In this document: in pieces, positions 2,231 through 11,314 of the stretch | Position numbering within the stretch: position 1 is the stretch's first letter | How the letters are laid out: every line of letters begins with the position of its first letter | From: an uncultured Gammaproteobacteria bacterium | Lineage (GTDB): Bacteria; Pseudomonadota; Gammaproteobacteria; Pseudomonadales; Azotimanducaceae | Assembly: GCA_913050035.1 (NCBI GenBank) | Contig: CAJXAC010000016.1 | Location: forward strand, 1-40,585 | Length of the DNA: 40,585 bases | Direction: 5' to 3' | The notes under the pieces: generated by a model | What the model was told of the DNA's origin: nothing | What the model saw: only the letters and a program-made list of their open reading frames with translations | Databases searched by the model: none | Position numbers and translations under genes: made by a program

Positions 2231-4798
2231 ATGAAAGAATTTACCCAACGGGTCGAGGCGGCACTGAATAGTGCTCAAAGCTTGGCGCTATCACTGCAGC
2301 ACGCGGAGCTTAAGCCACTGCATGTGCTTGCGGCGTTTATCGACATAAATGAATCGCTGGCTGCAGAGGTGGCCGCTGAGCAGGTCATCTCGTCCCAGCT
2401 GCGTAAACAAGTGAAGACAGCGCTGAATGATCTGCCAAGATTGGGCCAGTCTGCGCAAGAGCTGCGTATGAGCAGTGACTTGGTACAAGTTTTCGAGGCG
2501 GCGCGGGAATACAGCGAAAAAGCGGGTGATCATTATGTGCCCGAAGAGTGGGTATTGCTGGCGCTTTTAGAAGAACCAAGACTGCGTCAGCTACTAAAGC
2601 CATTAGGATTTTCCCCAGAAGTAATTCGAGCGGCTGCGAACACGCGGCGTCAAGGAGACAAAGTGTTAGATAAAAATGAAGAAGATCAGCGTTTGGCATT
2701 AGAAAAATACACGATAGATCTCACCGCCCGAGCCCTCGAGGGCAAGCTGGACCCAGTGATTGGCCGCGACGAAGAAATTCGCCGCACCGTGCAGGTGCTG
2801 CAACGAAGAACCAAAAATAATCCAGTGCTTATTGGCGAGCCGGGTGTGGGTAAAACGGCCATTGTTGAAGGATTAGCGCAGCGGATTGTAAACGGCGAAG
2901 TTGCTGAGTCTCTGAAAGACAAAAAAGTATTGTCCCTAGATATGGGTGCCTTAATTGCAGGCGCTAAATATCGGGGTGAGTTTGAAGAGCGGCTTAAAGC
3001 GGTGCTGAACGATCTGAGTAAACAAGAAGGTCGGGTAATATTGTTTATTGATGAACTGCATACCATGGTCGGCGCTGGTAAAGCCGAGGGTGCGATGGAT
3101 GCCGGCAATATGCTGAAGCCAGCGCTGGCGCGAGGCGAGTTGCACTGTGTCGGTGCGACCACTCTCGATGAATACCGGACCTTCATCGAAAAAGACGCAG
3201 CGTTAGAGCGGCGATTCCAAAAAGTGCAGGTCGACCAACCAGATCTGGAGAGCACCGTAGCGATCCTACGGGGGCTGAAAGAGCGCTATGAGGTGCATCA
3301 TGGCGTCAATATCACTGACCCCGCAATTGTCGCTGCTACCACTTTGTCCCATCGCTACATTACTGATCGGCAATTGCCCGATAAGGCGATCGACCTCATT
3401 GATGAAGCTGCGAGTCGGATTCGCTTAGAAATAGATTCAAAGCCCGAAAGTATGGATGCCCTGGAGCGTCGTCTCATGCAGATTCGTATGGAGATTGAGG
3501 CGCTGAAAAAGGAACAGGACGATGCGAGCCAGGCGCGTCTGAAAGAGTTGCAAAACACAGCGGCTGAGCTGGAACAAGACTACGGTCGACTTGATGACGT
3601 TCTGCAGCAAGAGAAAGCGACGCTGAAGGGTGCGCAGGGCACAAAGGAGGCGTTAGAGGCAGCCCGCTTAGAGTTTGCTGCTGCTCGGCGGGAAGGCGAT
3701 TTAACTCGAATGTCGGAGCTGCAGTACGGCGTCATTCCGGATCTTGAGAAGCGCGTTGCCCAAGCGCCCGAAACAACCCAAGGAAATCAGCTGTTACGGG
3801 ACCGGGTTACAGCAGAAGAAATTGCCGAGGTGGTTGCTAAGTGGACCGGAATTCCTGTCGCTCGACTTATGTCAGCGGAAAAACAGCGGCTATTGCACCT
3901 GGAAGAGGAATTGTCGAAACGCGTGGTTGGCCAACAGTCAGGTATCGAAGCGGTGAGTCAGGCGGTGCGCAGAGCGCGTGCAGGATTGGCCGAGCAGGGC
4001 CGGCCGAATGGCTCGTTCATGTTTCTTGGGCCTACCGGAGTTGGCAAAACAGAGCTGTGTAAAGCGCTGGCGGAAGTGCTATTCGATAGTGCCGAAGCAA
4101 TGTTACGCATCGACATGTCCGAGTTTATGGAAAAACATTCTGTCGCTCGATTGATTGGCGCGCCCCCCGGTTATGTCGGTTATGAAGAGGGCGGTTACTT
4201 AACCGAGGCGGTGCGGCGCAAGCCCTACTCGCTGATTCTGCTGGACGAAATCGAGAAGGCTCATGCCGACGTGTTCAATATCCTGTTGCAGGTGCTAGAT
4301 GACGGTAGGCTTACCGATGGCCATGGCAGAACAGTCGATTTCAGCAATTGCGTATTGGTGATGACCTCTAATCTTGGCTCCGAAGCCATCCAGGCTTTGA
4401 CTCAAGATGGCAATGAGGCGCGAATAGAGAGCACGGTCATGGGCATTGTGGCTCAGCATTTTCGCCCCGAATTTATCAATCGAATCGACGATGTGGTGGT
4501 CTTTAAACCCTTAGGGGAGGAGCAGATCGGGCAAATCGCCAAACTGCAACTCGATGCATTGAATGTGCGTTTGGGTGAACAGGATTTGCAGCTCACTCTT
4601 GCTGATGATGGATTAAGCGCAGTAACGAGCGCGGGATATGACGCGGTTTATGGGGCGCGACCATTAAAACGCGCGATACAACGTTTGGTAGAGAATCCGC
4701 TGGCAAATCAGATATTGGCCGGAAAGTTTGCGCCAGGTACGGAGATTTTAGGTGAATGGGACGGCGAGCAACTCATTTTTACTGAAAGTGCGCCATAA
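2231..4798 (+). CDS. clpB: ATP-dependent disaggregase chaperone ClpB
   Basis: An 855-residue AAA+ chaperone (E. coli ClpB has 857) that pulls proteins out of aggregates in the cytoplasm together with DnaK/DnaJ/GrpE. Domains in order: N-terminal Clp repeat domain (about 1-145), first nucleotide-binding domain with Walker [10 protein letters not shown] from residue 202 and Walker [10 protein letters not shown], a long coiled-coil M domain (about 400-520, which separates ClpB from ClpA), second nucleotide-binding domain with Walker [10 protein letters not shown] from residue 600, and the GYVGYEEGG pore loop. The ATG is preceded by GGCGGAG. A sigma-32 promoter lies directly upstream. The second Walker A region and the C-terminus ([18 protein letters not shown]) are intact. 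Identification is secure. Confidence 0.98.
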
Positions 4799-4804
4799 GA
4801 TAGA

Positions 4805-4824
4805 TATTGTATAAATATACAGTA
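4805..4824 (+). promoter_or_regulatory. LexA (SOS) box
   Basis: The 20 bases starting TATTGTATAA match the E. coli LexA consensus TACTG(TA)5CAGTA at 18 of 20 positions. The right half ACAG is perfect, and the left half is TTGT instead of CTGT (core CTGT-N8-ACAG, one mismatch). The box lies over the -35 and spacer of the candidate promoter of the following gene, the position from which LexA represses. Confidence 0.72.
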
Positions 4825-4834
4825 TCGGTACAAT
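4807..4834 (+). promoter_or_regulatory. Sigma-70 promoter overlapping the LexA box
   Basis: TTGTAT at 4807-4812, a 16-base spacer, TACAAT at 4829-4834. Transcription would start about 6-8 bases after the -10, that is at 4840-4842, and the ATG of the next gene is at 4841. The mRNA would therefore be leaderless or nearly so. Confidence 0.55.
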
Positions 4835-4840
4835 AACCCC

Positions 4841-5308
4841 ATGGAAACTGGCAATCCAATACAGCAAGACTGGCTTTCTGAGTGCGTCATCGACGTAGAT
4901 GATGACACGGCAGCAACGGCAGCAACAGCTGATAGTGGCAACGCCACGCAGTCGGATACACCGTTGGGCGCGACGTTGCCGTTATTTGCTGAACCCGAAC
5001 AGCATGCCTTGGTTGTAGCCAAGGCTACTGGGCGGGAAAAATTGCAGCGGCAACTCAGAGGTTCCTGGGTTAAACAAGCCGGTCATTCAAGTAATTCCAG
5101 AGAGTTAGAAGAAATTCGGCGATGCGCTCTAGGGGCCGCTGATCCCGTTCTCGAGCACCTCAATTCTGCGATGGATTTAGCGTATTCATTGCGAACGCGG
5201 TCGCCCCAGCGCTCTAAACGACAGAGTAAGACAGCAGGTGTTTTGATCTGTCGGCATCTTGTTGCTGCCTTAAAGCTGGCCGATGCTGCCCAGCACGCAA
5301 AAAATTAG
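4841..5308 (+). CDS. Unrecognised protein, predicted LexA/SOS-regulated
   Basis: A 155-residue soluble protein that I cannot assign to a family. The N-terminus is acidic (WLSECVIDVDDD), followed by an Ala/Thr-rich low-complexity stretch (about residues 23-42), a short PLFAEPEQHALV segment, and a helical, basic C-terminal half (RSPQRSKRQSKTAGVLICRHLVAALKLADAA). There is no signal peptide or membrane segment. The ATG has no Shine-Dalgarno sequence and sits where the upstream promoter should initiate, so leaderless translation is likely if this start is right; the next in-frame Met is around residue 110. A near-consensus LexA box covers the promoter, which suggests induction by DNA damage. It does not look like SulA, ImuA, DinI or UmuD. 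It is independent of clpB upstream and is followed 82 bases later by galU. Whether it is translated is inferred, not proven. Confidence 0.6.
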   Translation: METGNPIQQDWLSECVIDVDDDTAATAATADSGNATQSDTPLGATLPLFAEPEQHALVVAKATGREKLQRQLRGSWVKQAGHSSNSRELEEIRRCALGAADPVLEHLNSAMDLAYSLRTRSPQRSKRQSKTAGVLICRHLVAALKLADAAQHAKN

Positions 5309-5390
5309 TTATACGGTTCGCTGAACTATCACACTAAGCACAGTATTCCGGCTAACATAGAGGCTCCGTAATAAAAGGAGTCGCTGCGCG

Positions 5391-6215
5391 GTGCTGAAAA
5401 AATGTCTTTTTCCCGTGGCTGGCTACGGTACGCGGTTTCTGCCGGCCACCAAGGCTATGCCTAAAGAAATGCTACCGATACTCGACAAACCACTGATTCA
5501 GTATGGTGTAGAGGAAGCTGCTGACGCTGGCTTGAGCAACATTTGCTTTGTTACCGGGCGTGGTAAGCGGGCGATAGAAGACCATTTTGATGTCAGTTTT
5601 GAGCTCGAAAGTTCTATTGCGGGCACCGGTAAAGAAGAGGCCTTGCAGGGCATCCGAGGCTTAATCGACCAGTGTTCTTTTTCCTACACGCGGCAGCGCC
5701 AAATGTTAGGCCTTGGGCACGCCATTCTAACCGGCAAGCGCATCGTTGGTGATGAGCCGTTTGGAGTCATACTTGCAGACGACCTCTGTCTAACGTCAGA
5801 AGACGAACAGGGTGTAATGGGGCAGATGGCTGCTCTGTATGAGCAATATGGCTGCAGCATCGTGGCCATTGAAGAAGTTCCCGCAGATCAGGTGCATCGG
5901 TACGGGGTTATTGCCGGCGAGCCAATCACTAAGGATCTGTTGAAAGTCACAGATATGGTGGAGAAACCAGAGCCCGAGCATGCACCAAGTAACCTGGCAA
6001 TTATTGGTCGCTACATTCTGACCCCGGATATTTTCGATATTCTCCAGGGAATCCCCGCCGGTCGTAATGGCGAAGTGCAAATTACGGACGCCTTACTGCA
6101 GCAGGCCCAGCAGGGTAAAGTGTTGGCCTATAAATTCCGTGGCCGTCGCATTGACTGTGGTTCCGTTGAAGGATTTGTAGAAGCCACAAATTATTGTTTC
6201 CAACGAATGGGCTAA
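5391..6215 (+). CDS. galU: UTP-glucose-1-phosphate uridylyltransferase
   Basis: A 274-residue GalU that makes UDP-glucose from UTP and glucose-1-phosphate for lipopolysaccharide, exopolysaccharide and related sugars. It shows the nucleotide-binding start FPVAGYGTRFLPATKAMPKEMLPILDKPLIQY, the GLGHAIL motif, VEKPEPEHAPSNLAIIGRYIL, and the GEVQITDAL and DCGSVEGFVEA segments, all standard for the family. The start is GTG at 5391, with AAGGAG ten bases upstream; no ATG is available near the N-terminus. The length is close to Pseudomonas GalU (279). The stop is seven bases before the next gene, so the two are probably co-transcribed. Confidence 0.95.
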   Translation: MLKKCLFPVAGYGTRFLPATKAMPKEMLPILDKPLIQYGVEEAADAGLSNICFVTGRGKRAIEDHFDVSFELESSIAGTGKEEALQGIRGLIDQCSFSYTRQRQMLGLGHAILTGKRIVGDEPFGVILADDLCLTSEDEQGVMGQMAALYEQYGCSIVAIEEVPADQVHRYGVIAGEPITKDLLKVTDMVEKPEPEHAPSNLAIIGRYILTPDIFDILQGIPAGRNGEVQITDALLQQAQQGKVLAYKFRGRRIDCGSVEGFVEATNYCFQRMG

Positions 6216-8455: not shown

Positions 8456-11314
8456 ATGGCGAATTCTGATTGGGATACATACAAGCGGCTGCTCAGTTAT
8501 CTGGCGCCCTATTGGTTTTGGTTTGGTATTTCTGTGCTGGGATTTTTACTTGCAGCTGGAGCCGAAGGCTATTTCGTGCGCTTGTTTGGCAACTTAATCG
8601 ATGAATGGGATAACGAGGCTGCCCGGGCTGCTGCAACGATCCCACTGTTAATGGCCGCTGCCGCAGGGCTGCGTGCGGTTGGCACAGTCATCGGTGAGAG
8701 CATGATGGCAAAAGTCTCTTTCAACATGGTGTTTAATCTGCGCCAACAGCTATTTGAACAATTGCTGCGACTACCCACCCATTATTTTGACGCTAATGCC
8801 CAGGGCCATATTGTTTCGCGTATTACTTTTACCGTTACCCAACTGCGCGACACCAGTACGGATGCAATTCGGGCGGTGGTTCAAGACGGCCTTAAAGTAA
8901 TCGTCATTGTTGGCTTCATGTTGGCCTTAAACTGGCGCCTGACGCTTATCTTTATTGCGGCAGCGCCACTATTAGCGTTGGTCGTAGTCTTCGCCAGTGG
9001 CCGCTTTAGGCGCATTGCAAAGCGTATTCAGCACTCCATGGGGGATGTGACCCATGTGGTATCTGAAGCGGTAAATGGTTTTAAGGTTGTTAAAACCTTT
9101 GGCGGCGAGCGTTACGAACAGAGTCGCTTTGATCGTGCCAGCAAGGTTAATCGTCAGCAGAATTTGAAGATGGCGATGACACGCGTCTTCAGTTCACAGT
9201 TAAATGAAACCATTATCGCAGTGGCCCTGTGCTCGCTGATCTTGCTGCTGTACCGACCGGATGTGGGCGGTGGTTTAAGCGGTGGCGAGGCGGTAATGTT
9301 TCTGAGCTGGGCCGGGATGCTGGGTCGGCCTATTCGTAAACTCTCGGAGATTAATGCAAAGTTACAGCGTGGTATCGCTGCGGCTGAGGACGTCTTCTCG
9401 CAACTTGATTCAGGCGTAGAACATGATCACGGCTCTAAGACGATTGCCCGAGCTAACGGTCGGTTGCTATTGCAGGACGTTAGTTTCCGTTATCAAGATG
9501 ACGGGCCGGACGTACTGCGGCATATTAATCTCGACATAGCAGCAGGCCAGAAGGTGGCGTTAGTCGGGCGCTCAGGCAGCGGCAAATCAACTCTAGCTAG
9601 TCTGCTGCCGAGATTCTATGACGTAGGTAAAGGCTCCATCAGTATCGATGGCGTGAACATAAACGACATTCAACTCACCAGTTTGCGTCAGCAGATTGCC
9701 TTAGTAACCCAGCAAGTGACTTTGTTTAACGACACGTTGCGCAACAATATTGCATACGGCGATTTGGCCGATGTCGACGATGCGGCAATCAACTTGGCGA
9801 TTCAGCGTGCGCATGCTGATGAGTTTATTACAGCCATGCCCGATGGCTTAGATACCATGGTTGGGGATGATGGGGTGTTATTGTCCGGTGGGCAGCGGCA
9901 AAGAATCGCTATTGCTCGGGCGCTACTCAAAGATGCGCCGGTCTTGATTATGGATGAGGCGACATCGGCACTAGACAATGAGTCGGAAAAGCATATTCAG
10001 GCAGCCTTAGTCGAGGTTATGGAAGGGCGTACGACGTTGGTGATCGCCCATAGGCTATCTACTATCGAGTCGGCAGACAGAATTGTGGTGCTGGAAAGCG
10101 GCCAAATTGTGGAAGAGGGCACGCATCAAGAATTGCTTGGGCTGGGCGCGCAATACGCCAGTTTGCACGCTGCGCAATTTCAAGACACGCCCGATTCCGA
10201 GCCGTCTGCGGCCATAGAGGTGCAGGCGCTGTCTACGCCTCCTAACACCCAGATAGTGCCGTTCATGGGGGATTATGCGTCGCGCTCAGCGTCGGCTCTG
10301 AGTGCTGCTTGGTATAATGGTGCGCGCTGGCCACTACTAATGCTGCCGCTGTCGTGGCTCTATGGCCTGTTAGCGCGGCGCTCTAAAATAATCCATCAGC
10401 AACGGGCTCGCGCCGCCAGTAACGGGCACGTGCCGGTGATTGTTGTCGGAAATATCACTGCCGGAGGCACTGGCAAAACCCCCATGGTCATTTGGCTTGT
10501 TGAGCAGTTGCAGCAGCGCGGCTTTAACCCAGGTGTTGCTATGCGGGGATATCGGGGTCAAGCGAGTCGCACCGGATCATTGGTGCCTGCTGATGGAAAT
10601 GCAGCAGCCTATGGGGACGAAGCAGTGTTGATGCGGCGTCGTTTGCAATGTCCGGTAGCGGTTGCGGCGGATCGGCCCAGGGCCGTAACTATGCTGCATG
10701 ACCGTGGCTGCGACGTGGTGGTGAGTGATGACGGTTTACAGCATTACGCCATGGGTCGAGACATTGAAATTGCCGTGGTAGATGGGGCGCGCGGTTTGGG
10801 TAATGGGCGCCTTATGCCTGCGGGGCCGCTACGCGAACCACGCGAGCGCCTTGAGAACGTAGACTGGGTTGTGTCTAACGGCTGTAAAAGCGGCCTGAAG
10901 GCAGATGAAATCGTGATGCGGGCTAAAGCGCTCGATTTCGTCAATTTAACAACGGGGTTGGCATTGTCCGCAGACGAGTTTGTGGCGCAATTTAAGTTGG
11001 TGCATGCGCTTTGCGGCATAGGTAATCCGCTGCGGTTTTTAGGCTCATTACGAACGCTTGGAATATCGGCTGATTTGCATGAGTACGCTGACCATCACGA
11101 TTACTCCGGTAAGGAAGTTGTGTTTGCCGATGGACTGCCAGTGGTTTGTACAGAGAAAGACGCAGTTAAATTGCGCGAGCTTGAATTAGACCTAAGCCAT
11201 GTGTGGGCGCTGCGTATAGAGTTGGGATTTGATGACGATATGAGTTCGATGCTGAATGTGCTGCTGTCAGATAAAGGCATCGCTCCTCGCTCCGAGCGTT
11301 TGGGAGAGAGATAA
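8456..11314 (+). CDS. msbA-lpxK: Fused lipid A flippase MsbA and tetraacyldisaccharide 4'-kinase LpxK
   Basis: One uninterrupted 952-codon frame holding two enzymes normally encoded separately. Residues 1 to about 580 are MsbA: six-helix ABC exporter domain, Walker A GRSGSGKS from 371, signature LSGGQRQRIAIARALL from 476, Walker B VLIMDEATSALD. Residues about 604-952 are LpxK: membrane-binding helix WPLLMLPLSWLYGLLARR, Walker A GNITAGGTGKTP from 665, SDDGLQHYAMGRDIEI, NGRLMPAGPLREP and the DHHDY active-site segment. The pieces match the usual lengths (about 580 and 330-350). The linker (about 580-604) is Ser/Pro/Thr-rich. An internal ATG at 10265 could start a separate LpxK but has no Shine-Dalgarno sequence. 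LpxK phosphorylates the lipid A precursor on the cytoplasmic face of the inner membrane and MsbA flips the product. The gene follows exbD by 10 bases and precedes kdsB by 3. Confidence 0.93.
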   Translation: MANSDWDTYKRLLSYLAPYWFWFGISVLGFLLAAGAEGYFVRLFGNLIDEWDNEAARAAATIPLLMAAAAGLRAVGTVIGESMMAKVSFNMVFNLRQQLFEQLLRLPTHYFDANAQGHIVSRITFTVTQLRDTSTDAIRAVVQDGLKVIVIVGFMLALNWRLTLIFIAAAPLLALVVVFASGRFRRIAKRIQHSMGDVTHVVSEAVNGFKVVKTFGGERYEQSRFDRASKVNRQQNLKMAMTRVFSSQLNETIIAVALCSLILLLYRPDVGGGLSGGEAVMFLSWAGMLGRPIRKLSEINAKLQRGIAAAEDVFSQLDSGVEHDHGSKTIARANGRLLLQDVSFRYQDDGPDVLRHINLDIAAGQKVALVGRSGSGKSTLASLLPRFYDVGKGSISIDGVNINDIQLTSLRQQIALVTQQVTLFNDTLRNNIAYGDLADVDDAAINLAIQRAHADEFITAMPDGLDTMVGDDGVLLSGGQRQRIAIARALLKDAPVLIMDEATSALDNESEKHIQAALVEVMEGRTTLVIAHRLSTIESADRIVVLESGQIVEEGTHQELLGLGAQYASLHAAQFQDTPDSEPSAAIEVQALSTPPNTQIVPFMGDYASRSASALSAAWYNGARWPLLMLPLSWLYGLLARRSKIIHQQRARAASNGHVPVIVVGNITAGGTGKTPMVIWLVEQLQQRGFNPGVAMRGYRGQASRTGSLVPADGNAAAYGDEAVLMRRRLQCPVAVAADRPRAVTMLHDRGCDVVVSDDGLQHYAMGRDIEIAVVDGARGLGNGRLMPAGPLREPRERLENVDWVVSNGCKSGLKADEIVMRAKALDFVNLTTGLALSADEFVAQFKLVHALCGIGNPLRFLGSLRTLGISADLHEYADHHDYSGKEVVFADGLPVVCTEKDAVKLRELELDLSHVWALRIELGFDDDMSSMLNVLLSDKGIAPRSERLGER

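Follow-up and report, generated by a model that had tools for sequence, protein, structure and literature searches.

The locus raises the question of what is encoded by gene X, a small open reading frame behind clpB in the window (the whole stretch of DNA that was analysed, 40,585 nucleotides), and of whether this gene is under the control of LexA. A sequence-only reading had placed a LexA-type box over the -35 of a promoter (TTGTAT - 16 - TACAAT), followed by an ATG without a Shine-Dalgarno sequence and a 155-residue frame, and these features were found where it had described them (Table 1). The two mismatches of the box to the consensus are a C to T change in the left CTG and a T to A change in the middle. 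A gap of 6 nt separates TACAAT from the ATG of X, and transcription would be expected to start at or next to position 4841. The promoter is graded weak, since it matches the sigma-70 consensus at only 8/12 and a promoter scan of positions 4600-5600 listed none. The start at this ATG is supported by the N-terminal block PIQQDWLSE, which is conserved in the four aligned relatives and may have a role in binding a second partner.

Table 1. Coordinates of gene X, its control elements and its neighbours in the window
Feature	Position	Strand	Remark
clpB	2231..4798	+	upstream neighbour of X; named by NCBIfam
LexA-type box TATTGTATAAATATACAGTA	4805..4824	+	18/20 to TACTGTATATATATACAGTA, the E. coli LexA consensus
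-35-like hexamer TTGTAT	4807..4812	+	within the box; left CTG reads TTG
-10-like hexamer TACAAT	4829..4834	+	spacer of 16 nt
Gene X	4841..5308	+	155 aa; no Shine-Dalgarno sequence by eye
PIQQDWLSE block	4856..4882	+	residues 6-14 of X
Clamp-like peptide TLPLF	4973..4987	+	residues 45-49; invariant in five aligned sequences, in a variable linker
Conserved core	5138..5290	+	residues 100-150; basic two-helix hairpin (predicted)
galU	5391..6215	+	downstream neighbour of X; named by NCBIfam
952-aa ORF	8456-11314		MsbA-type ABC exporter (ABC_membrane, ABC_tran) fused to LpxK kinase (PF02606, residues 627-934, E 1.7e-93)

A search with the window X protein alone reached only 7 of 120 family genomes, one of them that of the window and the rest weak matches, and synteny behind clpB was therefore used, the end of ClpB being matched in at least 115 of the 120. 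The DNA behind clpB was read at 103 places in 102 genomes (30 and 73 loci, with two places in G001), leaving out 12 genomes with a paralogue-level ClpB match (about E 1e-73 to 1e-78), G038, where the contig ends, and a second copy in G098. An X homologue, identified by a profile of the conserved core within the same GTDB family, follows clpB at 71 of the 103 places, a second weak match in L038 having been dropped from the 71; galU stands downstream in many of the members that carry the N-side motif described below. A core profile search found X in at least 114 of 206 family genomes and at least 31 of 37 genera, the former figure being a lower bound because G021 and G103, both found by synteny, were missed. 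When the search was taken to the order (293 genomes), the six matching genomes among the matches listed all belonged to the family, and at class level (369 genomes) the only match among those listed was the window's own genome. The order-level profile missed G021 and G070, both of the window's own genus, and is thus not fully sensitive, so that distant relatives of X may exist elsewhere. Comparison of the window with locus L128 gave pN/pS values of 0.05 for the core, 0 for the ten codons around TLPLF, 0.41 for the linker and 0.60 for the middle; across four relatives the ranges were 0.05-0.31, 0-0.36, 0.41-0.83 and 0.51-0.73 respectively, and in the more distant pairs the synonymous sites were nearly saturated. 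Conservation of the frame in relatives is upheld both by the homologues behind clpB and by the low ratios of the core. Judged from these alignments, the frame of X is real and under purifying selection, with a constrained core and a loose linker, and the gene is apparently restricted to one family. Three further observations concern its copies and forms. One genome has two X genes, the one behind clpB and another that is preceded by tandem boxes (L288, G041:C72). The 2 kb retrieved at L275 (G486) shows no clpB, but the X there still has a box of 18/20 upstream. Four loci of the window's genus (L012, L014, L290 and L292) encode variants of about 360-390 aa, with large inserts between the core halves (by eye) and a second peptide of the QAELPL type. 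A literature search, with subscription journals mostly outside its scope, found no paper on an X-like gene.

The box travels with the gene. Between -40 and +300 from the clpB stop, a box of at least 14/20, a threshold set after the scores had been seen, was present at 66 of the 71 X-bearing places and at none of the 31 that lack X (L029, with only 50 bases downstream, was excluded); scores ran from 11 to 19 with X versus 8 to 12 without X, and 23 of 3060 shuffled regions reached 14/20. Of the five exceptions, one (G002) carries a good pair of boxes farther downstream, directly at its X, and G110, G077, G035 and G059 have degenerate CTG-N10-CAG boxes (by eye). Five MAG relatives (L127-L131) share the clpB-box-X order and a 20-base box identical to that of the window. 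In 14 further loci the box reached at least 14 in eleven (of which L286 repeats L128) and 13 in two, the last lying at a contig edge; within this set, L275 scored 18/20 and L279 17/20. A box of at least 16 was found in all of another set of 16 loci, four of which repeat named loci while L287 is common to the set of 14. Natural absences of both X and box, with galU within about 0.5 kb behind clpB, occur in seven genomes (G092, G068, G057, G109, G102, G036 and G076; loci L019, L024, L025, L028, L052, L101 and L110). The co-occurrence of box and gene supports the proposed LexA control, including the expectation that the box would be conserved upstream of orthologues. At the level of sequence the support for LexA control of X is strong, and X would be expected to be bound by LexA at its promoter and induced by DNA damage.

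The window's genome (2.6 Mb, 120 contigs, 92% complete) holds a LexA gene (98.5 bits) and further LexA-type boxes. The consensus with at most three mismatches occurs at 4 places genome-wide, against 0 for the reversed control, and the two boxes with two mismatches stand before X and before imuA. Two further boxes of 17/20 lie at position 924 of L254 (G000:C68) and position 262 of L253 (G000:C19), and lexA itself is preceded by two weaker CTG-N10-CAG boxes (by eye). The imuA operon with the strong box also holds an error-prone DnaE-type polymerase gene, both genes being named by NCBIfam. Between these two lies a gene for a 475-aa product with no NCBIfam match at 1e-10, and this protein, which contains QSKDLF (by eye), is for that reason called ImuB by position and reading only. 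The separate ImuA of the window's genome is at G000:C20.

The designs by which the box is joined to the gene differ among relatives. Members with a single box mostly carry TATTGTAT, with the left CTG changed to TTG and forming the -35; in the 27 single-box members scoring at least 16, the left half is TTG in 21 and CTG in 2. Near-leaderless geometry, that is a TA-type -10 with the start codon 6-8 nt behind, was found at 20 of 24 loci of the window's genus (in about seven, the -10 and a second box-like element overlap), and a relaxed geometry test on shuffled downstream bases gave a mean of 1 and a maximum of 5 of 24 in 500 trials. Loci L286, L291, L293, L294 and L295 were excluded from the genus count as repeats of L128, L130, L127, L131 and L129 respectively. 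A leader of 26 nt is present in L296 and L297, of which L296 has a clear Shine-Dalgarno sequence, and two of the 24 loci did not fit. In other genera two boxes about 26 bp apart precede X, as at L066, L056 and L075 (26-27 bp), and these tandem boxes may provide cooperative or tighter repression. With the start chosen by script, the start lay 4-9 nt behind the -10 in 13 of the 27 single-box members; the corresponding number among the 33 multi-box members was 10, and 14 of these 33 have a Shine-Dalgarno-like string. The multi-box spacing and the Shine-Dalgarno counts indicate that only some members of the family have the leaderless design; the near-leaderless geometry seen in the window is kept in most of its genus and is not general across the family.

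The protein itself appears to be a mostly disordered chain joined to a basic two-helix hairpin. In an AlphaFold2 model built from five sequences, the first 100 or so residues are disordered save for two short helices of low confidence, and the hairpin is formed by helices 102-119 and 126-151, with pLDDT of 70-89 per ten-residue block; the mean pLDDT of the model is 59 and the model is weak outside the hairpin. An alignment of the core from 44 members has an invariant A, C and L, with two H and one further L nearly so, and the net charge of the core is positive in 44/44. Pfam (to E 10, with HMMER filters applying) and NCBIfam gave 0 families for the window X protein. A SulA domain (PF03846) is absent, there is no NCBIfam match to ImuA, and 0 families up to E 10 were found for the Pfam domains of DinI, YebG and UmuD. 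The 44 cores gave single-member matches only against Pfam, NCBIfam and PHROGs (best E 0.0025) and no match against PADLOC; Foldseek with the model gave no match at E <= 0.001, the best E against PDB sequences was 0.25, and viral contigs, phages and plasmids gave no match to one 73-aa relative from G041. The statement that X fits no known SOS family has therefore withstood the sequence and structure searches, with no Pfam or NCBIfam family matched.

Outside the core, the sole feature seen across the family is a short peptide resembling those that bind the sliding clamp. Any of three patterns was found in 61 of 71 X, compared with a mean of 5 and a maximum of 13 in 500 shuffles; the two Q-led patterns matched 42 of 71 versus 4.6 in shuffles, the C-terminal hexapeptide occurred in 29 versus 0.2, and the N-side LxLF/DLF form in 26 versus 0.27. 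The Q-led patterns were modelled on clamp motif forms and the third was a fit by eye; the sequences had been read before any of the three was drawn up. Of the 54 ATG ORFs of at least 100 aa in the window, 0 end in the hexapeptide. The N-side clade has the forms TLPLF, SLPLF, QLPLF, QASLF and PDLF; in the other clade the peptide occupies the final six positions or lies close to them (QFSLGF, QYSLGF, QITLGF, QYPLPM). On an unrooted ClpB tree a single branch (support 0.968) separates the N-side from the C-terminal members, and this split suggests that the motif was relocated once, apart from L287, a member of the window's genus outside the tree that lacks TLPLF and has the C-terminus QMSLL. The idea of many independent motif moves was cut back, as the split places the N-side members together. 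A second peptide of the QAELPL type is present in four genus members (G050, G070, G420 and G423). Ten of the 71 have no pattern match, of which G025 and G099 are cut by contig ends, and in G093, counted without a match, PDLF is hidden under a misplaced core. Near forms seen by eye among the non-matching X are FDLF, QLALL, QYAF, QLSLPG (G005) and QHSIF (G086); G419 (L289) has no clear motif and that of G445 (L302) is degenerate at best. Many N-side motifs, the TLPLF of the window included, lack Q at position 1, so that window X has the loose clamp form only. Published clamp motifs are QL[S/D]LF or QxxLF; QLSLPL binds tightly, and the first position is variable in the clamp motif of DnaE3 (PMC12309361). 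The mycobacterial ImuB motif is QLPLWG, whose loss abolishes clamp foci (PMC10421592). It is a well-motivated expectation from these motifs that X would bind the clamp.

X is, in our judgement, reasonably likely to be an SOS-induced clamp-docking factor that acts as a helper or a brake of lesion bypass. LexA on its box would cover the -35 and repress X; upon DNA damage LexA would be cleaved, giving a transcript starting at or next to the AUG. The disordered tail would present the docking peptide, TLPLF here and the C-terminal QFSLGF type in other genera, which at stressed forks would fit into the peptide pocket of the beta clamp while the basic hairpin holds DNA or a partner. X could then alter the choice of polymerase or repair factor on the clamp, an effect on polymerase exchange that we infer from the parts of the protein.

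The peptide may instead be no clamp ligand and serve as a C-terminal degron or another adaptor site, with the hairpin acting on DNA or RecA. The C-terminal form does end in hydrophobic residues, as some degrons do, and the hairpin is basic in every core aligned; a degron at the C-terminus, however, would account neither for the N-side form, which is internal, nor for the Q about six residues from the end or the QMSLL of L287, and we think this explanation unlikely. It is also conceivable that X is a clamp decoy, which slows replication merely by occupying the pocket, without any partner. X is short, with a docking peptide and little else, and the four genus members with two such peptides would suit this function, but the strong constraint on the core hairpin would be unneeded for a pure decoy and makes the proposal rather improbable.

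A third possibility is that X is an SOS cell-division inhibitor that replaces SulA, with the LxLF peptide docking on a division protein. SOS division inhibitors are often small, fast-changing and lineage-specific. The SulA model has no match at E 0.001 among the matches listed for the window's genome, and the 74 listed SulA-model matches in relatives coincide with ImuA matches (by eye), so that no dedicated SulA is seen in the family. Against this stand three properties of X: no membrane segment is apparent (by eye), the motif is clamp-shaped and found at either protein end, and the core is basic. The strongest functional clue, the clamp-like peptide, points to the replication clamp rather than to the divisome, and a role in division is accordingly quite unlikely. 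The last alternative, a chance box above a meaningless frame, could appeal to the lack of any Pfam or NCBIfam family for window X and to the 44 cores having given no more than single-member matches, but is refuted by the co-occurrence of box and gene, by purifying selection and by the breadth of homologues across genera.

The notion of X as part of an ImuA set was weakened. ImuA is present in at least 96 of 120 family genomes and, among the matches listed, in 66 of 77 genomes with X (core-profile matches plus G021 and G103 from synteny) versus 30 of 43 without X, an association that is only loose (p 0.055).

For the clamp-docking factor favoured here, a bolder and decidedly tentative version is that X founds a new SOS class, a clamp-docking checkpoint that is neither a polymerase nor an AAA+ protein and is made from a LexA-locked leaderless message. 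The hairpin, tethered to the clamp by a mobile peptide, would then gate polymerase exchange, and the leaderless message could be translated once the repressor leaves. Most of the clamp ligands known from the SOS response are polymerases or the hub ImuB. If the clamp-docking reading of this small and fast-changing protein is true, it would show that lineages invent their own clamp-directed damage factors by joining a LexA box to a clamp-type peptide; X also provides a gene to study that bears the sequence signs of LexA control and is probably leaderless.

Comparison with known systems sets X apart while suggesting its nearest counterparts. SulA, SosA, SidA and DidA are small, damage-induced and lineage-specific; X has no match to SulA and has a clamp-type motif. 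Hda, a clamp-bound regulator whose clamp peptide we take to be QLSLPL, is like X in that a small protein joins one clamp peptide to another domain. That domain is AAA+ in Hda, whereas X has no Pfam domain found and has a LexA box. As for ImuB, the imuA-imuB operon of this genome has a strong LexA box, and the ImuB-like protein there has the QSKDLF peptide noted above; ImuB, however, is a catalytically inactive Y-family polymerase (PMC10421592), whereas X lacks a polymerase domain and has a core of just two helices. By sequence X falls outside the families tested, and by its probable mode of working, tethered to the clamp, it is nearest to ImuB or Hda.
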